Shown here piece after piece: positions 28,666 to 38,474 of a stretch of DNA of 64,000 nucleotides; within the stretch, counting starts at the first letter, position 1, and each line of letters starts with the position of its first letter. Location: contig NZ_CP012981.1 in the NCBI RefSeq assembly GCF_001411495.1, positions 3,658,001 to 3,722,000 on the forward strand, in the 5' to 3' direction. The notes below the pieces were generated by a model. The model saw nothing but the letters and a program-made list of their open reading frames with translations, ran no database searches and had not been told where the DNA came from. Origin of the DNA: Burkholderia cepacia ATCC 25416 (lineage in GTDB: Bacteria > Pseudomonadota > Gammaproteobacteria > Burkholderiales > Burkholderiaceae). The position numbers were made by a program, and so were the translations under genes.

Positions 28666-29583
28666 TCAGATCGCGAACGAGGTATCGCGCGCGCCGATCG
28701 TTTCTTTCAAAGCTTTCACCCACTTGCGTGCGGGCAGCTTCAGCGTGTCCTCGATCAGCTTCGCACGCGCGTCGAGCTGCGCGAACGACACGTCGAGCGC
28801 AGGGCCCGAGAACGCGATCGCGATCCGGTTGCCGTCATGCACTTCCGGCAGCGCGATCACGCGATGATCGAACGCCGCGTTCAGGTGCTTCATGTTGCGC
28901 ACGAAGCTCGGATGGTCGCCGAACAGATTGATCGTCGCGATGCCCGCGTCGGCAAGGCAGCCGCGCACCGCACGGTAGAACGCGACGCTGTCGAGCACCG
29001 GGCCGCGCGCGGTCGCGTCGTACAGGTCGATCTGGATCGCGCCCGTCGTGCCGCGGTTGGCCGGGTCGTTGACGAAGTCCCACGCGTCGGCTTCGTGCAC
29101 GACGAGACGTGCGTCGTCGGGCGGCATCGCGAACATCGTGCGCGCGGCGACGATCACGGCCGGGTTCAGCTCGACGGCCTCGACCTTCGCCTGCGGGAGG
29201 AAGTGGTGCGAGAACTTGGTCAGCGCGCCGGTGCCGAGCCCGAGCTGGACGATCCGCCCGGGCGTTTCGAGGAACAGCAGCCACGCCATCATCTGCTGCG
29301 CGTATTCGAGCTCGATGTGCAGCGGCTTCGAGATCCGCATCGCACCCTGTACCCACTCGGTGCCGAAATGCAGGAAGCGCACGCCGCCCTCTTCCGAGAA
29401 CGTGACGGGCGCGAAGCGCGGCTTGCGCGGCGCTTCGAGCACGGGCACGTCGTCGTGTTCGTCGATGTCCGGGCGGCGCTTCACGCGCGGCGGCTGGAGT
29501 TTTTCGGAGCCGTTATAGGAGGACGGCTTGCGATTCTTGAACGCGCGCGCCTCGGCGGACGCGCGCTTGATCAGTCGGGTCAT
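28666..29583 (-). CDS. Spermidine-synthase-like protein
   Basis: 305 residues with a Rossmann methyltransferase fold of the spermidine synthase superfamily. The cofactor loop is VQLGLGTGALTKF, the acidic strand end is VEAVELNPAV, and IQIDLYDATARGP replaces the usual D-x-x-D-P catalytic region. The first 55 residues are a basic, low-complexity extension. Because the catalytic loop departs from SpeE, it may be a related aminopropyl- or methyltransferase rather than true spermidine synthase. It borders the left side of the accessory island. Confidence 0.8.
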   Translation of the reverse strand: MTRLIKRASAEARAFKNRKPSSYNGSEKLQPPRVKRRPDIDEHDDVPVLEAPRKPRFAPVTFSEEGGVRFLHFGTEWVQGAMRISKPLHIELEYAQQMMAWLLFLETPGRIVQLGLGTGALTKFSHHFLPQAKVEAVELNPAVIVAARTMFAMPPDDARLVVHEADAWDFVNDPANRGTTGAIQIDLYDATARGPVLDSVAFYRAVRGCLADAGIATINLFGDHPSFVRNMKHLNAAFDHRVIALPEVHDGNRIAIAFSGPALDVSFAQLDARAKLIEDTLKLPARKWVKALKETIGARDTSFAI

Positions 29584-29736
29584 GATTGAATCTCGCTGGG
29601 TGACGCTGGTTTTAGCGGACGAGAGGATAGCATTGGTGCAAGGAAGCGACTGTCGAAGACAGGCTCACCGTTACGCTCCGTCGATCGGTCGGCGTGGACG
29701 ATAGTGCATCGCAACCGTGTTGGAGGACGTTGCCTA

Positions 29737-29993
29737 ATGAAAACCGACGCATTTCCATCCGTCCGCGTCGAGCCGGAACTGCTTGCTACGGCCAAACGCG
29801 TCCTATGTGATGGCGAAACACTATCGAACTTCATCAAGCAATCAATCCGTAAAGCTACCGAGCGTCGCCGGCTTCAAAGCGCGTTCATTGCGCGCGGCAC
29901 TGCGTCCCGTAATGAGGAAATGCACACTGACCAGTCTTTCTCCTCGCACGACTAGAACGGCGCCTCGATGCATTCCGCGTTCGCCAAGAGTAA
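29737..29993 (+). pseudogene. Frameshifted antitoxin-like gene (YlcI/YnfO, ribbon-helix-helix type)
   Basis: The ATG-initiated frame (29737-29955, 72 codons) opens MKTDAFPSVRVEPELLATAK and continues GETLSNFIKQSIRKATERR, which resembles small RHH antitoxins. After about 29940 it ends at a stop, but another frame continues LLARLERRLDAFRVRQE to a TAA at 29991-29993. That is what the C-terminus of this family looks like. A short indel near 29930-29945 is therefore likely. No toxin gene follows. GGAGGA lies upstream of the ATG. First gene of the accessory island. Confidence 0.6.
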
Positions 29994-30044
29994 GCTTGCT
30001 GATCAAATTGTTCGCGTCACAACCGTCAGACGACGAGGAACCGT

Positions 30045-30299
30045 ATGGCCTCAAGTGACAAGAAAATCTGGTTTCCGGAGAAACGCTATGGCTGAGGATG
30101 AGGGTCGCCGGTTGCGTGGCAGGGCTGGGGCGTAATGCTGCTGTTCGTGATCGCAATAATTGCGACCGTTTGGCTGCTGCCGCCACACAAGTCACCGTTC
30201 GCGTATAACGCCTGCATCGTGGCGCTGTTCGCTATGCTGATCGCTGTATGGTGGATAAAGGGTGAAAAAACCCTGCGGAGATGGGGCAAGGATGATTGA
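30045..30299 (+). pseudogene. Small membrane protein gene interrupted by two in-frame TGA codons
   Basis: One frame reads MASSDKKIWFPEKRYG, stop (TGA 30093-30095), G, stop (TGA 30099-30101), GSPVAWQGWGVMLLFVIAII and on to WWIKGEKTLRRWGKDD and a TGA at 30297-30299. I recall similar small proteins having KRYGWGWG at this place, so both TGAs appear to replace tryptophan TGG. Other tryptophans in the frame are TGG. A shortened product could start at ATG 30135 and would carry two membrane helices in 54 residues. Function unknown. Confidence 0.65.
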
Positions 30300-30448
30300 A
30301 CGTCGAAGTGGTCATGATAGAAAATGGAATATACCTACATCCCTGATGGCGCTTGATACATGTCGCCACATCTTGTCAACACTTGATTATTTTGTTGAAA
30401 TATCTCACCGGCTCACTCCTGAACAACCATCGATAGACTCAAAAACAG

Positions 30449-31963
30449 ATGACCATATCGACGCGAGAAGACGCCATTCAAAATCTCTCTCTTTCGGGAG
30501 GAGGATTTCGTGCAGCGTTTTTTCATTTTGGCGCACTTTATGCGCTTGCAGCAGCCGGTCGCTTACGTGATCTGAAAGTATTGATTACTGTTTCGGGCGG
30601 CTCAATCGCTGGGGCGTTCTTTTTACAAGCCATACATAAAGCAGGTCCATCGACGTGGAGAGATGACAGAAAGCTCGCGGACTGTGCCATCCACGCATGC
30701 CAAGCCCTCTATTATCAATCGAAAAGAAATCCTCGAGGGCGCATACTTTCTTCCTTTCGTGCGCTATGCCAAGGTTTGGTCCGTCACGAATGGGGATTCT
30801 CCAAAGCCCTCGTTCGCCTGATGAACCGCTGGTTCAAAGATCTGGCAAATGCCTCGTCACAACAAACATTGACGGCTATGCCCGAATGGCGAATCGCCGC
30901 TACTAGCTACACTACTCCCAAACGCGTGCTTCTAGTGAGCGCACAAAACAAGCATCAGCATCGAAGCGACGCCCACTACGTCGAACTGTCCAACAAGGAC
31001 ATCCCCGTCGCCATCGCAGCATCCAGTGCCCTTCCCGGCATCTTTGAACCAGTAATGCTCAACGACCTATTACTTGGTGACGGTGGCATCCTCGACAATC
31101 TCGGCGTGCACGAACTCGCAACTTCGGATACTTCTGCAGTATGCGTAGACGCGTCAGCAGAAGCGGCTCCATTAGACCATATCGACGGATGGAGTACGCC
31201 GATGCGAGCAATGGATATGTTACTTGATCAGGATCGAACGAACGCAATTCGTTCGACAAAAATGCAGATTATTTCACTCCGCGAGTCGAGGCCAGACAAC
31301 CAGGCGTGGCGCAATGCACTGCGCTCAGTTCGAACCGATCTTGACGATTTCACATTTTGCGAAGCAAATCTCCTCTACTTAGCGGGATATCAGGCTGCAA
31401 GCGGGACGTCTTTCATGCCGCCTCAGGAACCGATTCCGAACGCAAGTTATATTTGGCGCCTCATGGTATTGGGAGATACTGCAGATTCCTCAAATAATCA
31501 CAAAAACCAATCAGCAAAGATTCGAAAATCCATATTAAACGAGCTTGAACGCGGAAAGTTTGGAATTGCATCCGGATTCAGGAAGCCATCCACTGCATCG
31601 ATTTTAATGTCGCTCGCCTCCATATATATGGCCCTCGCCGGAACACTAATCGTTGTGCTTTACGCCTTGTTAGTCTTCGCTGGAATTGTTCAAAAGCTAC
31701 CGCTATCGTGGCAAAAATTTCCTTTGGAAATACTTGTACTCATAGCGTGGGCCGCGTCGAGTGTCTGGCTCTTTTTCTCGTACGCCGAATGGCGTAAGCG
31801 CAACGTCGGTTGGTTCTCCCGGGTACGGCAGGGTCTTGGTTCAATCGTGGGGCCGCCCCTGCTGCCTGCAGTTCTAATCGTGTCGCTGCTCCTCAAATTC
31901 GGCCCGCTGTTCCCCGTTCGCGAACACTCCAGATTCACTAGGATCCGTGCATGCAAACTCTGA
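30449..31963 (+). CDS. Patatin-like phospholipase with C-terminal membrane segments
   Basis: 504 residues. The patatin domain covers about 10-330: oxyanion loop SGGGFRAAFFHFG (residues 16-28), nucleophile Ser52 in VSGGSIAGAF and catalytic Asp211 in LLLGDGGILDNLG. Residues 379-490 have about four hydrophobic helices, so it is membrane attached. The likely activity is acyl hydrolysis of lipids. Codon use is markedly less GC-rich than in the flanking genes, a sign of transfer. Patatin effectors are common in bacterial anti-phage systems, where they damage the membrane; no nucleotide cyclase or other sensor gene is adjacent, so its trigger is unknown. The ATG at 30449 has no strong ribosome-binding site. 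Confidence 0.82.
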   Translation: MTISTREDAIQNLSLSGGGFRAAFFHFGALYALAAAGRLRDLKVLITVSGGSIAGAFFLQAIHKAGPSTWRDDRKLADCAIHACQALYYQSKRNPRGRILSSFRALCQGLVRHEWGFSKALVRLMNRWFKDLANASSQQTLTAMPEWRIAATSYTTPKRVLLVSAQNKHQHRSDAHYVELSNKDIPVAIAASSALPGIFEPVMLNDLLLGDGGILDNLGVHELATSDTSAVCVDASAEAAPLDHIDGWSTPMRAMDMLLDQDRTNAIRSTKMQIISLRESRPDNQAWRNALRSVRTDLDDFTFCEANLLYLAGYQAASGTSFMPPQEPIPNASYIWRLMVLGDTADSSNNHKNQSAKIRKSILNELERGKFGIASGFRKPSTASILMSLASIYMALAGTLIVVLYALLVFAGIVQKLPLSWQKFPLEILVLIAWAASSVWLFFSYAEWRKRNVGWFSRVRQGLGSIVGPPLLPAVLIVSLLLKFGPLFPVREHSRFTRIRACKL

Positions 31964-32011
31964 CGCCCAATACTCGTTAGTGTGTTCTGAAAGCGTTAGC
32001 TCGCCCTTCAA

Positions 32012-32375
32012 TCAACCTAGAATCACCCACCGCTGCTCCCGCTTCTGCTCGAATGACAGAACCGCATTCGCTGGACTTGACGACGGCAGTATGAACGTCT
32101 GGTATCCGACCTTGCCGATCACGTCAGCAAACCGCCACACCGTCTTGCCGTTTAAGCACACCTTCGTCAGCAACGGCGTATGCGCGCGCAACGACGCGAA
32201 GTCGTTCGGCTTCGCATGCCGGATCGCAGAGTCGAGAATGCCTTGCCGATGGCAGGCATTCGAGCACGTCCCAGATGCCGATGCCATGCCCAAGCACGCG
32301 CACGAACCGCGCGTCTTACGCCAGTTCGTATGGCCTGTGGCTCGCCGAGCACCGCCCCAAACAATCGCTGGAGCG
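32012..32375 (-). pseudogene. Decayed 3' part of a DNA glycosylase gene (copy of 35492-35850)
   Basis: On the minus strand the frame ending at 32012 reads SAIRHAKPNDFASLRAHTPL, then CLNGKTVWRFADVIG and LPSSSPANAVLSFEQK, clearly matching the C-terminal half of the intact glycosylase at 35492-35968. The frame shifts near 32265 (the upstream part is in another frame), and similarity ends around 32375; the 5' half of the gene is missing. Substitutions are spread throughout, so it is not a recent duplication. It is in direct orientation with the intact gene and marks a boundary of the island. Confidence 0.85.
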
Positions 32376-32669
32376 GTTTGATGTTTTGGCCGATTTGACA
32401 TCCAGAAGCAATCGCCATCGGTAGTCGCCAGACAGATAATGCCGATATTCATTTGACGGGATCCGAACAGACGCACGTGCTGCAAAGCGGCTGGTCAGTG
32501 CTGGCAATGGCCATCCTATCGGACTCCCTGTCTCAAGCATTTCCCTCGTCCAGGGAGCACTCAACGATCTCCGTCCAAGCTGGCAATTTGCTCCGCATTT
32601 TCCGGAATGCGGTAGGATTTGCTTGCAAATCCAGCGTGTCGGAAGCATCCAAAGGGAATCAAGACCAAC
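32376..32669. other. Intergenic stretch before the TIR module
   Basis: 294 bases of lower-GC sequence with no recognisable gene. It must contain the promoter of the TIR module. I see no clear operator or hairpin. Confidence 0.5.
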
Positions 32670-33620
32670 ATGGCCGCGAAGAAAACGCCAGCAGCAAAAA
32701 CACAAAGCCGAAAGCCAGCGCCAGCCCGTTCTTCGACTCATCGATTCGAGCCAGCCAAACTCGACTCGTTGTTTGTAGTTCTTGACGCTATTGCTTGGCT
32801 CGACACCCCGGGCACGACGCAAGTGGCGCAGTTCGCGGGCATCGACCCACGTACCGCAGGGAAACTGCTCAAAAATGCATGTCAAATCGGACTCGCTGAT
32901 GTGGTGGGGTCTGGCTACGCGCTAGTCCTCCCGTATCCATACAAGGGGGCAAAGGACCAGAAGGAGGCCGTTGTCAAAGAGGCATTGGTTCGGCTGCCTC
33001 TGCTCACTGGTGTTCGCCAATTCTTGCGGTTGGGGGACACGACTGACGCGGCGCTTCGGAAAGCAGCCACGATTGCCGGAATTTCTCCGTTCGTAGCGTC
33101 TGACCTTAACCCGTTGTTAGAATGGGCCCAGACTTTGGGCGCGCTTCAACCCAACATCCTTGCCGAAGATCTCGTGGATGCAGCAACGGAGAAGAAAGAG
33201 CAGCGTCATCAGCAAGAGAAGGATCGTCGTATCGCGTTCCTTTCGCATAGCTCCGTGGATAAGCCGTTCATTCGACAACTCGCGGGCGACCTTACCGCGA
33301 ATGGCGTCGATGTGTGGCTAGATGAACAGCGGATCCGGGTCGGTGACTCGATCCCAGAAAAGTTAGCTCAGGGATTGGCTGGGTCGGACTTCTTTCTCAT
33401 TGCCATGAGCGAACATTCGTCCGGGTCTGCATGGGTGCAAAAGGAACTGAACAACGCGCTTGTCAATGAGGTGCAACGACGCAAGGTTCACATCCTTCCA
33501 CTTCGGCTGGATGACACACCTATGCCACCGATTATCGCTGACAAAAAGTACGCCGACTTTTCAAAGTCGTATAAAGCCGGCCTTGAGGATCTATTGACGG
33601 CTATGAAGGGGGACGTATGA
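32670..33620 (+). CDS. TIR-domain protein with N-terminal winged-helix-like region
   Basis: 316 residues from ATG 32670 (AAAGGGAATC upstream; the frame is open 17 codons further up). Residues 1-27 are basic and low-complexity. About 28-92 look like a winged helix (LDSLFVVLDAIAWLD, then TTQVAQFAGIDPRTAGKLLK), 95-160 form a second helical region, and 187-312 form a TIR domain: RRIAFLSHSSVDKPFIRQLA, VDVWLDEQRIRVGDSIPEKL (BB loop), SDFFLIAMSEHS and WVQKELNNAL. Glu259 of WVQKEL sits at the NADase catalytic position, so NAD+ cleavage is plausible. It overlaps the next gene by four bases. Composition is unlike the core genome. Likely role is an abortive-infection effector; this is inference. Confidence 0.85.
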   Translation: MAAKKTPAAKTQSRKPAPARSSTHRFEPAKLDSLFVVLDAIAWLDTPGTTQVAQFAGIDPRTAGKLLKNACQIGLADVVGSGYALVLPYPYKGAKDQKEAVVKEALVRLPLLTGVRQFLRLGDTTDAALRKAATIAGISPFVASDLNPLLEWAQTLGALQPNILAEDLVDAATEKKEQRHQQEKDRRIAFLSHSSVDKPFIRQLAGDLTANGVDVWLDEQRIRVGDSIPEKLAQGLAGSDFFLIAMSEHSSGSAWVQKELNNALVNEVQRRKVHILPLRLDDTPMPPIIADKKYADFSKSYKAGLEDLLTAMKGDV

Positions 33621-34441
33621 CCACAGCTGGCAAGAAGCCCAGGCAGATGCCCAAGGGTGGACGCAAGGGAGGAACTGTCTTTCCACGAGTGGCACTCAGT
33701 GATGCATTGCAATACGCAAAGAAGCTGGTGAGCAAGACTCATACAAGTGCCCAACCGAAGGATGTGATTCTGTCGGGCGTAGTAGGGGCCAAGTCGGGTA
33801 TCGGCGAAGTACGTATGTCTGCGATGAAGCAATACGGTTTTCTGAAAGGGGATGTCAAGACAGGGTTTTCAGCAGACGAATTGGCCAAAAGAATTGCGTC
33901 TGCACCAGCAGAAGAACTTACGCCGCTTTATCAGCAAGCGATGCTGCGCCCAACGGTTTTCAAGAGGCTGTTCGACACATATCACGGCGACACAGTCGCC
34001 AAGGCGAAACTCAAGCAAAGAGCGTCCGATTTAAAGGTCCACCCTGACGAAACCGAGACGTGCGTCGAACTCTACATGTCCGGAATGGTGACCGCCGGGC
34101 TCGTGACAATCAATGGTGACCGCGTCGTTCATAAGGCTTCTAGCGATCTCGACAAAACGGACACAAAAATAAAGGAGCCTGGGCAGATCGAACAAGACAT
34201 TTCTGAGTCGCCGTCAGACGAAGATAATGTGGGAAACAAATCTTTAGGTACGGATACTGTTGCGGGGAGCAGCGCTGCCGCCGAACGAGCGAACGGAGCC
34301 CTGCCAAGTGATCCCGCCGGTGAGCCGAACCAGCATGGGCCTCGGGCCGTTTTCAACGTCAACGTCACGCTCGACTCCAGTTTGGATATCGAAAAGCTAC
34401 AGAAGCAACTGGAATTGCTCAAGCGCTTCGGTGCGATCTAG
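33617..34441 (+). CDS. Unrecognised partner of the TIR protein
   Basis: 274 residues, starting inside the stop of the TIR gene (ATGA). Residues 1-20 are basic. About 21-175 form a mostly helical region (VALSDALQYAKKLVSKTH, RMSAMKQYGFLKGD, RPTVFKRLFDTYHGD, YMSGMVTAGLVTINGD) with the look of paired winged-helix domains (DUF5343-like, by impression only). A Ser/Asp/Gly-rich linker (about 176-242) follows, then a short conserved-looking end FNVNVTLDSSLDIEKLQKQL with LELLKRFGAI. There is no membrane segment, nuclease, SIR2, SLOG, cyclase or PIWI motif. It could sense or regulate for the TIR effector. I cannot name a family. Confidence 0.75.
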   Translation: MTTAGKKPRQMPKGGRKGGTVFPRVALSDALQYAKKLVSKTHTSAQPKDVILSGVVGAKSGIGEVRMSAMKQYGFLKGDVKTGFSADELAKRIASAPAEELTPLYQQAMLRPTVFKRLFDTYHGDTVAKAKLKQRASDLKVHPDETETCVELYMSGMVTAGLVTINGDRVVHKASSDLDKTDTKIKEPGQIEQDISESPSDEDNVGNKSLGTDTVAGSSAAAERANGALPSDPAGEPNQHGPRAVFNVNVTLDSSLDIEKLQKQLELLKRFGAI

Positions 34442-34519
34442 CTGTGAAGCTTCAATAGGTTGTGTCAATGATTCAGCCGAACTGAGTCTGGGAGACTGGA
34501 AGTCGCCAAACACCCAACC

Positions 34520-35481
34520 GTCCAGGAACCCAGCCGGACGAACACCAATAAGGACGCCAGACTCGCCTTTGCCCTTCGACTTGAGATGGCTCAGGAGATC
34601 ATCGAATTCGGTTTGACTTTGCCGCAGGCGGCAGCCGACCAGGGAGTGATGTACGCAAATGGCTGGGACGCTATTTGGCGAGCGGTGCGGCTGCGCTGGC
34701 CGACGCATCTTCTCACCAGCCCGTTCGCCTCGCGCGATCGCACCGGCCACGGCTCTGCTAATCGTAGAGTTGCGCCTGCAGCGCTTGTTGCAGCGTCAGA
34801 TCGCACGCGAGGTCGGCGTTTCTGCGTCGCCCACCGATGGGGTCTTGGCTCGTGCTGGATAGTCTTGTTTGAACTATCTGCAGCCGAGCGAGCCGATCCA
34901 GCGATACGAGCATGGGGCTCCGGTGTATTTTCTCCACATCGACACTGAGAAGCTCGGCAGCATCGCACGCCCCAGCCCTCGCGCACGGGCGATCGGCGCG
35001 ATTCGGTAGTGAATGGTATCGGCTTGGAATATCTGTTTATGGCCGTAGATGACCACGCTCGTATTGCCTTCACGGCAATGCATCCGGATGAGAAACGGGC
35101 CAGCGCCGTGCAGTTCTCGCGTGACGCCGTGGCTTGGTATGCAGAACTCGGCGTGCGCGTCCGCAGGCTGTTGACCGACGCAGTCTCAGCGCTCCGTTCA
35201 TGCGAATTCGCTCGGGCCTGCTAGGATCTGGGTATTCGGCACAAATTCATAGGGCGTATCGTCTGCAGACCAACGGTAAGGCTGAACGCTTCATCCAATC
35301 AACCTCGCGCGAGTGAGCATACGTCTGGACTTACCAAAGCTCCGCCCACCGCAGCGACGCCGTGGCAAGCCGGCAGCATCACAACAACTTGCATCGTGCC
35401 CACAGCACCATCGGTTGAATTGCGTCAATGGCCAGACTTCCCGCGTCGAAAAACAACCTCTTGACGACGCTTCACCTCTAG
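34520..35481 (+). pseudogene. Degenerate IS481-family transposase
   Basis: Pieces of one transposase appear in successive frames. They are EIIEFGLTLPQAAADQGV near 34600, then SPRAIAPATALLIVELRLQR and QIAREVGVSAS near 34735-34830, then PSEPIQRYEHGAP near 34880. Further on are LFMAVDDHARIAFTAMHPDE (35035-35095), AYRLQTNGKAERFIQST (35255-35305) and a final NLLTTLHL with TAG at 35479-35481. The DDE core is split by several frameshifts and the start codon is altered, so it is inactive. I could not find terminal inverted repeats. Confidence 0.85.
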
Positions 35482-35491
35482 CTTGCAAAAT

Positions 35492-35968
35492 TCAAGAACG
35501 AATTGCGCGCCAACGCGACAGCTTCTGCTCGAACGTCAGCACCGCATTCGCTGGACTTGACGACGGCAATACGAGCGTGTCATAACCCGCGTCTCCGATC
35601 ACGTCGGCGAACCGCCCTGCCGTCTTGCCGTTGAAGCACACGCGCTTGAGCAACGGCGCATGTTCCCGCAACGAATCGAAGTCGTTCGGCTTCGCATTCC
35701 GGATCGCCGAGTCGAGACTGCCTTTCCGATGGCATGCATCGAGGACGTCCCAGATGCCGATGCCATGCGAAAGCACGCACACGAGCCGCGCATCGTACGG
35801 CAGGTCATGAAGCGTCGGCTCGCCGAGCACCGCCCCCAGCAACCGCCAGAACTGGTTGCGCGGATGCGCGTAATACTGCGCGGCGTCGAGCGACGCCTCG
35901 CCCGGAAAACTGCCGAGGATCATCGTGTGCGTATCCGGCCCGACGACCGGCGCAAACCCCTGCAGCAT
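35492..35968 (-). CDS. Hypoxanthine/deoxyinosine DNA glycosylase (UDG superfamily, family 6)
   Basis: 158 residues. Motifs of the Mug-like/HDG class: ILGSFPGEASL near residue 17, QYYAHPRNQFWRLL near 31, GIGIWDVLDACHRKGSLDS near 70 and a late LPSSSPANA (about 136), which corresponds to the superfamily's HPSP-type motif. It excises deaminated adenine (hypoxanthine) from DNA. The ATG shares one base with the ubiC stop, so it is the third gene of the htpG-ubiC chain. A decayed copy of its 3' half lies at 32012-32375; the intact gene is the right border of the accessory island. Confidence 0.88.
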   Translation of the reverse strand: MLQGFAPVVGPDTHTMILGSFPGEASLDAAQYYAHPRNQFWRLLGAVLGEPTLHDLPYDARLVCVLSHGIGIWDVLDACHRKGSLDSAIRNAKPNDFDSLREHAPLLKRVCFNGKTAGRFADVIGDAGYDTLVLPSSSPANAVLTFEQKLSRWRAIRS

Positions 35969-36579
35969 CACGCGACTCCACGCGGCCCGACGGACCGGGG
36001 CCCGTCGCCGTGCGCATCGAGATGACGCCACAGCGCCGGCAGCATGCATTCGGTGACCATCAACGGCTTGCCGTGACGCTGAAACACCGAGCGTCGCGCG
36101 GCAAACGCATGCGGCGCGCGCACGCCCGCGCCCAGCGCATGGCTCGCGAGCGCATACAGCGGATGGCCGGCGATCACGCGCCGGCTGACGAGCGCAGAAC
36201 GTTCGACCTGCGGATCGCTGTACAGCAACTCGGCCAGCGGCCGCGTGCGCAGCCGCCGCATTGCCTGCCACACGCCCTTGCTGGCCGCGAGCGGCGCGAT
36301 GCTGTGCGCGGCAACAAAAGGCGTGCCGTCGACCGACAGGATCACCTCGCGCACCCACATCGGCGCGCGCGGCGAACTGGCGAGCGCGTCCGGCTCGTCG
36401 AACCACGGGCAGTCGACGGCCTCGCGCGTCACCCGCACGTTCACGCGGCCGAGCCGCGCGAGGTGCGCGGTCAGCGATCCGCTGCGCGTCAGCCAGTCGC
36501 GCTGGTCGAGCGTGCAGCCAGGCCGCGGCGTCTCGCGCCAGCCGGCCTGCCCGCCGTCGAATCGCAAGCGCGCGTTCAC
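35968..36579 (-). CDS. ubiC: Chorismate lyase UbiC
   Basis: 203 residues from a GTG that overlaps the htpG stop by four bases (GTGA). UbiC converts chorismate to 4-hydroxybenzoate and pyruvate, the first step of ubiquinone synthesis. Recognisable segments: [49 protein letters not shown] and a C-terminal [20 protein letters not shown] with the active-site Glu. Length is somewhat above that of E. coli (165). The stop overlaps the glycosylase start by one base. Confidence 0.93.
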
Positions 36580-38474
36580 GCGGTGCGCGACAGCAGCAGC
36601 GCGTTGGTCCGCTTCACGAAGCTCGCCGGATCGTCCAGCATGCCGCCTTCGGCCAGCAGCGCCTGATCGAACAACAGATGGGCCCAGTCGCCGAAATCGG
36701 CGCTGTCGGCCTTCAGTTGCTTGACGAGCGCGTGCTCCGGGTTGATCTCGAGGATCGGCTGCATCGCCGGCGCATTCTGGCCGGCCGCCTTCAGCATCCG
36801 CTGCAGGTAGCCGCTCATGTCGTTGTCGTCGGCGACGAGGCACGACGGCGAATCGGTCAGGCGGAACGTGACGCGCACTTCCTTCACCTTGTCGCCGAGC
36901 GCTTCCTTCATCTTCTCGACGACGGGCTTGATCGCCTCGCCCGCTTCTTCCTGCGCCTTCTTCTCTTCGTCGTTCAGCTCGCCGAGGTCGAGGTCGCCGC
37001 GCGCCACGCTCGCGAGCGGCTTGCCGTCGAATTCATGCAGGAACGACAGCATCCATTCGTCGACGCGGTCGGTCAGCAGCAGCACCTCGACGCCCTTCTT
37101 GCGGAACACTTCAAGGTGCGGGCTGTTCTTCGCGGCCTGCCACGTGTCGGCCGTCACGTAGTAGATCTTGCTCTGCTCGGGCTTCATGCGCGACACGTAG
37201 TCGGCGAGCGACACGTCCTGCGCGTCGGTGTCGCCGTGCGTCGACGCGAAGCGCAGCAGCTTCGCGATGCGCTCGCGGTTCGCGTGATCCTCGCCGAGGC
37301 CTTCCTTCAGCACCTGGCCGAACGCGCCCCAGAACGTCTTGTACTTCTCCTTGCCGGCATCCTCTTCCGCGTTCGCGAGTTCCTCGAGCATCGACAGCGC
37401 GCGCTTGGTCACGCCTTCGCGGATCGCCTTCACGTCGCGGCTTTCCTGCAGGATTTCACGCGACACGTTCAGCGGCAGGTCGGCCGAATCGACGACGCCC
37501 TTCACGAAGCGCAGGTATTGCGGCAGCAGCTGCTCGGCGTCGTCCATGATGAACACGCGCTTCACGTACAGCTTCAGGCCGCCGCGGTAGTCGCGGTTCC
37601 ACAGGTCGAACGGCGCGTGCGCCGGCACGAACAGCAGCTGCGTGTATTCGCTGCGGCCCTCGACGCGGTTGTGCGTCCACGTGAGCGGATCCTGGTGGTC
37701 GTGCGCGATGTGCTGGTAGAACTGCGTGTACTGCTCGTCGGTGACGTCGCTCTTCGAACGCGTCCACAGCGCGCTCGCCTGGTTGACGGTCTCGTCCTCG
37801 TCCTTCAGGACCATCTCGCCCTTTTCCTGATCCCACTCTTCCTTCTGCATCAGGATCGGCAGCGCGATGTGATCGGAATACTTCTGGATGATCGACTTCA
37901 GGCGGTGCGACGACAGCAGATCATCCTCGCCTTCGCGCAGGTGCAGCGTGATCGTCGTGCCGCGCTGCGCGCGCTCGATCGCGTCGATCGTGAAGTCGCC
38001 CTCGCCCGCGCTTTCCCAGCGCACGGCTTCGTTCGCCGGCAGGCCCGCGCGGCGCGTCTCGACGGTGATCTTGTCCGCGACGATGAAGCCCGAGTAGAAA
38101 CCGACGCCGAACTGGCCGATCAGCGCCGCGTCCTTCTGCTGGTCGCCGGACAGCTTCGTGAAGAATTCCTTGGTGCCCGAACGCGCGATCGTGCCGAGGT
38201 TCGCGATCGCCTCGTCGCGGCTCATGCCGATGCCGTTGTCCTCGATCGTGATCGTGCGGGCGGCCTTGTCGAAGCCGATGCGGATGCGCAGGTTCGGATC
38301 GTTCTCGTACAGCGCGTTGTCCGCGAGCGCTTCGAAACGCAGCTTGTCGGCCGCGTCGGACGCGTTCGACACCAGTTCGCGCAGGAAGATTTCCTTGTTG
38401 CTGTAGAGCGAATGGATCATCAGGTGGAGAAGTTGCTTGACCTCTGCCTGAAAGCTCATCGTTTCATGTGCCAT
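36576..38474 (-). CDS. htpG: Chaperone HtpG (Hsp90)
   Basis: 632 residues, the usual length. GHKL ATPase domain at the N-terminus: [12 protein letters not shown] near residue 31, [14 protein letters not shown] near 84, [12 protein letters not shown] near 122, all intact; the middle domain has [10 protein letters not shown] and the C-terminal dimerisation domain ends the protein. It is a cytoplasmic ATP-dependent chaperone. It heads a coupled chain with ubiC and the glycosylase gene. I saw no clear heat-shock promoter upstream. Confidence 0.98.

Follow-up and report, generated by a model that had tools for sequence, protein, structure and literature searches.

Multi-wHTH modules of the FokI, SspB and DndG type are DNA-binding, target-recognising units of defence systems, and TIR domains are found on Orc/CDC6 proteins in related neighbourhoods (PMC10853773). 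The TIR NADase SpbK is switched on by clustering via its N-terminal domain, which binds the portal protein of the phage (PMC12847820), and Thoeris has ThsA besides its TIR protein (PMC7272460). Here, we analyzed a TIR gene of Burkholderia cepacia ATCC 25416 together with the gene directly behind it, called the partner gene in the following. Both are located in a window of 64,000 nucleotides, the whole stretch of DNA under study (Table 1). A first-pass annotation of the window had described them as a two-gene TIR module, translationally coupled by ATGA, with a partner that it could not place. The coupling and the coordinates proved to be exact.

Table 1. Features of the TIR/partner locus and its surroundings (window positions)
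Feature	Position	Strand	Remarks
'speE', polyamine-aminopropyltransferase-like gene, left slot border	28666-29583		family match under cut-off
Patatin-like phospholipase gene, in the low-GC slot, outside the conserved pair	30449..31963	+	Pfam Patatin 5.6e-18
Incomplete, degenerate copy of the 3' part of 'mug'	32020..32380	-	80-87% repeats of stretches within 35500-35858
TIR protein gene	32670..33620	+	316 aa, stop included; ATG at 32670, stop at 33618-33620
TIR protein, predicted winged helix, residues 31-91	32760..32942	+	AlphaFold2 model, pLDDT block means 90-96
TIR protein, predicted four-helix HTH-like part without clear wing, residues 95-155	32952..33134	+	AlphaFold2 model
TIR domain, residues 187-316	33228..33617	+
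Glu259 codon (WVQKEL), presumed TIR-type catalytic glutamate	33444..33446	+	E in 118/118 aligned relatives
ATGA overlap, TIR stop and partner start	33617..33620	+	4 bases
Partner gene	33617..34441	+	274 aa, stop included; ATG at 33617, stop at 34439-34441
Partner, basic motif MPKGGRKGG..FPR, residues 11-24, nearly invariant	33647..33688	+	mean majority-residue share 0.93, 138 rows
Partner, tandem winged-helix core, residues 21-178	33677..34150	+	predicted model
Partner, acidic variable linker, residues 179-240, predicted disordered	34151..34336	+	pLDDT block means 45-54
Partner, C-terminal tail, residues 241-274, almost invariant; helix 258-270	34337..34438	+	majority-residue share 0.94; pLDDT block means 66-87
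'mug', presumed DNA glycosylase gene, right slot edge	35492..35980	-
htpG, beside the slot	36576-38474		family match

Domain architecture of the two proteins

The C-terminal part of the TIR protein matched TIR_2 in Pfam (E 7e-28, residues 190-309), and its predicted model has a TIR fold that resembles the TIR domains of SPARTA and SARM1. Glu259, already pointed out in the first-pass annotation, is kept in the structural model as well as in the alignment, where it corresponds to the WTEYEL-type glutamate of 7uxr; we take it to be the catalytic residue. The protein is a predicted NADase that would cleave NAD+. All 19 PADLOC matches, including Thoeris ThsB, TIR-Ago, RT-TIR and PDC-S66, begin at residue 141 or later and thus rest on the TIR part, and in a fold search with the whole protein the TIR domain dominated the match list. 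From residue 23 on, conservation of the TIR protein amounts to 0.78-0.90 (share of the majority residue).

The partner reached no family cut-off in Pfam and had no match in NCBIfam or PADLOC, which speaks against membership in a defence family covered there. A Pfam match to the ATPase inhibitor zeta (E 0.17) and matches of the tail to de novo TIM barrels were read as chance, and single-sequence and profile searches against PDB sequences gave no convincing match. The predicted model contains a tandem winged helix with pLDDT block means of 92-98 for residues 21-170. Its widest fold matches in the PDB are the DNA-recognition parts of FokI, N.BspD6I, BpuJI and SspB, and the modelled tandem fits the fold of multi-winged-helix readers of the FokI/SspB/DndG type. 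The partner is therefore unplaceable only as far as family cut-offs are concerned, and can be placed by its predicted fold and by its kinship to a wider family of N-terminal modules, described below. Conservation reaches 0.76-0.79 in the core and drops to 0.31 in the linker (residues 176-240); the net charge of the linker has a median of -10 and is negative in every one of the 127 of 138 rows in which the tail pattern was found.

Both proteins start with a basic tail, as had been noted before, with a net charge of +6 in residues 1-24 of the TIR protein and 1-20 of the partner. Paired helical or winged-helix-like regions had also been proposed for both; the modelled partner has a tandem winged helix, and in the TIR protein the first N-terminal domain is modelled as a winged helix and the second is helical without a clear wing. 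A profile of the winged-helix part of the TIR protein matched one protein of genome G522 (E 1.5e-4), presumably of the IclR type. Helix order and spacing look alike in the models of the TIR N-terminus and the partner, judged by eye without superposition, and a profile comparison of the two detected no sequence kinship (score 14.4; shuffles reach 16.0).

Co-inheritance, spread and genomic setting

At E <= 0.001, protein searches found 422 sequences related to the partner and 722 related to the TIR protein, so the pair is not a chance arrangement. Names and sequences were taken from the best 120 of the 422 and the best 120 of the 722. When 84,980 species genomes were scanned for sequence patterns, nine loci were returned. 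In all eight with a full or near-full partner, the TIR gene is directly upstream on the same strand, and the two genes thus do co-occur elsewhere; seven of these eight public loci have the 4-base ATGA overlap, and L009 has a 3-base gap instead. One component is broken in two of the eight, by a stop in the TIR gene of L004 and a frameshift in the partner gene of L006. The ninth locus (L010, Solimonas) retains no more of the partner than a frameshifted piece of its tail, which suggests a loss of the module. This remnant (L010:10001-10100) sits right before another ORF.

For an analysis of co-divergence, clusters of both families were matched by a unique identical size of the longest source sequence. 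Among 117 x 116 listed rows from the best 120 of each family, this resulted in 39 partner/TIR cluster pairs; ten small offset shifts gave one to three matches. The distance matrices of the 39 pairs correlated with r = 0.68, compared with at most 0.31 in 2000 permutations, and a correlation of 0.54, a value without permutation control, was obtained with the partner core alone. Mean distances were 0.37 for the partner, 0.27 for its core and 0.19 for the TIR protein. Taken together, the TIR gene and the partner gene are a real co-inherited unit, whose members diverge together.

The pair is rare and patchily distributed. It was detected in one of 101 relatives and in one of 398 genomes sampled from the phylum, in both cases the genome of the window itself, and an order sample of 399 genomes gave this genome and two weak matches. 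A weak partner match in G587 (L012; E 2.6e-4), with an open frame of 58 aa and two stops, looked like chance. Hosts of the loci from the species scan include Paraburkholderia, Caballeronia, Achromobacter, Mitsuaria, Pseudoxanthomonas, Lysobacterales, Hydrogenophilales and a Syntrophus MAG; protein names among the best 120 of each family add Mesorhizobium, Variovorax, Burkholderia contaminans and Luteimonas. The TIR protein was absent from 72,556 plasmid records (E limit 1e-40) and from 50,697 phage records (E limit 1e-20), and pattern scans of viral contigs confirmed neither the TIR protein nor the partner. The two genes travel between bacteria as a unit, and we predict that they represent an undescribed anti-virus system.

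Within the window, the pair is part of a low-GC slot. In a profile from 26 to 40 kb, the GC content is 0.47-0.58 at 29.5-34.5 kb, 0.56-0.62 on to 35.75 kb and 0.62-0.72 elsewhere. The right edge is formed by a gene which we take to be mug. It was matched in all 61 same-genus genomes, 54 times at 75-100% and seven times at 48-50% identity, and ten of the 61, including the genome under study, contain extra fragments of its 3' end. We compared the slot in 20 same-genus regions, nine of them picked for mug fragments and 11 others. While mug and speE border it in all 20 and htpG comes next in 19 (the contig ends earlier in the remaining one), the spacing between mug and speE ranges from 430 to 7,805 bases, and the TIR, partner and patatin genes had no match in any of these regions at E 1e-3. 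Because the borders are constant and both size and content vary, the speE-mug interval (28666-36020) is an insertion or recombination hotspot. A PADLOC scan of 30 of the 78 slot-cargo ORFs (>= 100 aa) revealed one NsnA-like ORF (E 2e-61) and two PDC-S02 matches among the 25 of 42 matching families listed. Other contents of the slot in the window are an 83-aa ORF at 29704-29955 without Pfam match, which has relatives in the same slot of six of the 20 regions, and short ORFs at 34500-35470, which we assume to be transposase remnants. The product of the patatin gene has hydrophobic C-terminal stretches by eye, and the mug fragment lies between this gene and the TIR pair.

The neighbourhoods at other loci were scanned with Pfam (20 ORFs of the six loci other than L004 and L008) and PADLOC (10 ORFs of four loci). 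Defence genes were found near the pair in two of the four loci scanned with PADLOC: in L002 (Paraburkholderia susongensis) RmrA (E 3e-130) and a retron-type RT-Toprim protein (E 3e-220) are encoded within 8 kb, and the neighbours in L009 (a Lysobacterales MAG) comprise a PDC-M28B match, a patatin, a TIR_2/SLOG-cluster-2 pair, a transposase and integrases. A phage-type integrase is present near the pair in L003. The TIR_2 gene in L009 is followed by the SLOG cluster 2 gene in a Thoeris-like order (L009:4496-6767), without PADLOC match at E 0.001.

Homologous N-terminal modules and the DUF5343 parallel

A weak match, L011, led to proteins with an N-terminal half homologous to the partner core, termed N-module in the following. 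Alignment of the core with L011 alone gave an hhalign E of 3e-7, and with a seven-member N-module 98.4% and E 1e-14 over 152 columns (10 shuffles <= 21). When L011 was searched against 300 genomes of the order, 32 had a match, and 27 of the 36 match rows covered the C-terminal domain only. N-module ORFs were present in seven loci, including that of L011 itself, and one more (L050) was found in a phylum sample of 299. In L026, L029 and L035 the module is fused to CAP12-PCTIR_TIR. L011 ends in a TIR-like effector part (PADLOC E 1e-4); the C-terminus of L022 is similar, with no family match, and L020 has a weak nucleoside-deoxyribosyltransferase match under the cut-off (E 0.0044). L028 and L050 are solo N-module proteins with a common, different C-terminus, and no effector was seen alongside; L028 is located after an elongation factor P gene. 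The fused proteins resemble the pair in combining a homologous core with a TIR-type effector, but they are encoded by one gene and belong to another branch of TIR-type domains, and neither the conserved tail nor the MPKGGRKGG motif is present in them. A profile comparison of the TIR N-terminus with the N-module (score 27.5; shuffle maximum 18.7) is suggestive only.

Ribonucleotide reductase recurs beside these modules: the two-gene module in L005 begins 107 bases after the small-chain gene, and the fused modules L029 (= L055) and L035 (= L056) are also directly downstream of such a gene. In the family of G512, six of seven genomes were matched, one being G512 itself, and the slot holds other ORFs in the remaining five, where tblastn gave no match in the slot for the TIR protein, the partner or the N-module. 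An insertion slot is therefore the simpler reading, and a functional coupling to ribonucleotide reductase is disfavoured.

A possible parallel two-gene system is formed by DUF5343 and HEPN genes. In five of six fetched cases (L013, L014, L016, L017, L018), the DUF5343 gene is beside a HEPN_Swt1 gene, and four of the six proteins (L013, L014, L016, L018) have a strand-helix-like tail by eye. Like the pair, these systems combine core, linker and strand-helix tail with an adjacent effector gene; unlike in the pair, the effector is a HEPN protein, and the profile kinship to the partner (score 25.9, E 0.004; 10 shuffles <= 17.4) is only suggestive. The Pfam family itself (PF17278) had no match to the partner at E 1 and none in the genome of the window, and no mention of DUF5343 was found in open-licence PMC articles.

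Proposed mechanism and comparison with known systems

We propose, with moderate confidence, that the pair is a two-gene module for abortive infection: the partner would read (foreign) DNA and cluster or license the TIR NADase. The TIR protein would be a dormant NADase and the partner its sensor; this role had been suggested in general terms in the first-pass annotation, and the predicted tandem winged-helix domain of the FokI/SspB/DndG kind narrows it to that of a putative DNA reader. The basic N-terminal motif would grip the DNA backbone, motif and winged helices both contacting nucleic acid and both being shielded by the acidic linker at rest, while the conserved C-terminal tail would dock on the TIR protein. 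Several partners on invading (or processed) DNA would bring TIR proteins together, composite TIR active sites would form and destroy NAD+, and the loss of NAD+ would stop the cell before phage release.

A narrower form of this proposal, restriction without cutting, is put forward tentatively: a split-off restriction-type reader may sense a sequence, an end or a modification on foreign DNA and fire a TIR NADase in trans. As the same reader is also fused to CAP12-type TIR domains, a DNA-read, NAD+-depleting class may exist in one-gene and two-gene forms. If true, this would join the winged-helix readers of restriction systems with the TIR NADases common to bacteria, plants and animals, in a small pair for which trigger (DNA), switch (the conserved tail) and output (NAD+ loss) can all be predicted, and with a family of several hundred relatives, mostly without informative name.

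An unlikely alternative is a guard or toxin-antitoxin-like pair, in which the tail of the partner inhibits the TIR protein, the winged helices may regulate the operon and the TIR protein is released once a phage attacks the partner or transcription. Two translationally coupled genes, the high conservation of the tail and of most of the TIR protein, and a partner more variable than the TIR protein are all in agreement with this idea, and many autoregulating antitoxins contain winged helices. However, the effector gene stands first in the pair, whereas most toxin-antitoxin operons have the antitoxin gene first, and homologous modules at the N-terminus of TIR domains in single proteins are a better fit to a sensor or receptor than to a labile antitoxin.

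It is also quite improbable that the partner or the N-terminal domains of the TIR protein bind a phage protein, with the winged helices as a protein-binding scaffold. SpbK and the portal protein provide a precedent (PMC12847820), and DNA binding of the partner is itself a prediction; yet the structures that match the partner most widely by fold are DNA-recognition domains, and the nearly invariant motif of the partner (residues 11-24) is strongly basic. It is very unlikely, in our view, that the pair acts in stress response or gene regulation and is carried along as accessory cargo. Although the slot carries varied cargo in the genus, much of it without PADLOC match among the matches listed, the retained catalytic residue of the TIR protein, the patchy spread in the relatives and the phylum sample and the defence neighbours in L002 and L009 favour defence. 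Also very unlikely is Thoeris-like signalling, in which the TIR protein makes a cyclic ADP-ribose to which an effector located elsewhere in the cell responds: TIR proteins of bacteria are able to produce signals of this kind (PMC11312562), but among the 20 neighbour ORFs from six of the eight loci (those other than L004 and L008), the only SLOG gene (L009) has its own adjacent TIR gene.

The pair had initially been set apart from Thoeris, CBASS, Pycsar and short Argonaute systems, and the Pfam, PADLOC and NCBIfam model matches argue against all of them. Thoeris was rejected, as the partner, a predicted tandem winged helix, has no ThsA, SLOG or SIR2 model match. For CBASS and Pycsar, neither the partner nor the N-terminal part of the TIR protein nor the patatin gene upstream matched a cyclase, SAVED, STING or cyclic-nucleotide model. 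SPARTA has the closest TIR fold by Z (14.1) and, by entry titles, nucleic-acid-bound TIR complexes; in contrast to the pair, it has APAZ and Argonaute in place of a predicted winged-helix protein. The TIR-Ago PADLOC models do not reach beyond the TIR part (residues 141-313 at most), and the partner is no Argonaute. A retron with TIR effector was likewise rejected: the pair contains no reverse transcriptase, and NF042941 matches the TIR end only (78 bits, cut-off 600). In Retron-Eco1 (Ec86), effector and winged helix are reportedly combined in one chain; it matched with one winged helix and differs from the pair by its reverse transcriptase.

SpbK and Thoeris ThsB share with the TIR protein a TIR domain behind an N-terminal domain, which is the sensing one in SpbK, and NAD+ chemistry, and their PADLOC models match only its TIR part. 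Unlike the pair, SpbK is a single protein with a 4-helix N-terminal domain (PMC12847820). The domains of FokI, N.BspD6I and BpuJI and the SspB/DndG subunits have 7-14% identity to the partner; the module of FokI, SspB and DndG is described with three winged helices (PMC10853773), compared with two modelled in the partner, and FokI-type systems use a nuclease as effector, where the locus studied here has a TIR domain. In titles and abstract starts of open-licence PMC articles, we found no description of a two-gene system of TIR and winged-helix proteins. With the FokI/SspB/DndG module on one side and the clustering of SpbK on the other, a DNA reader placed before a TIR domain has a precedent for each half.
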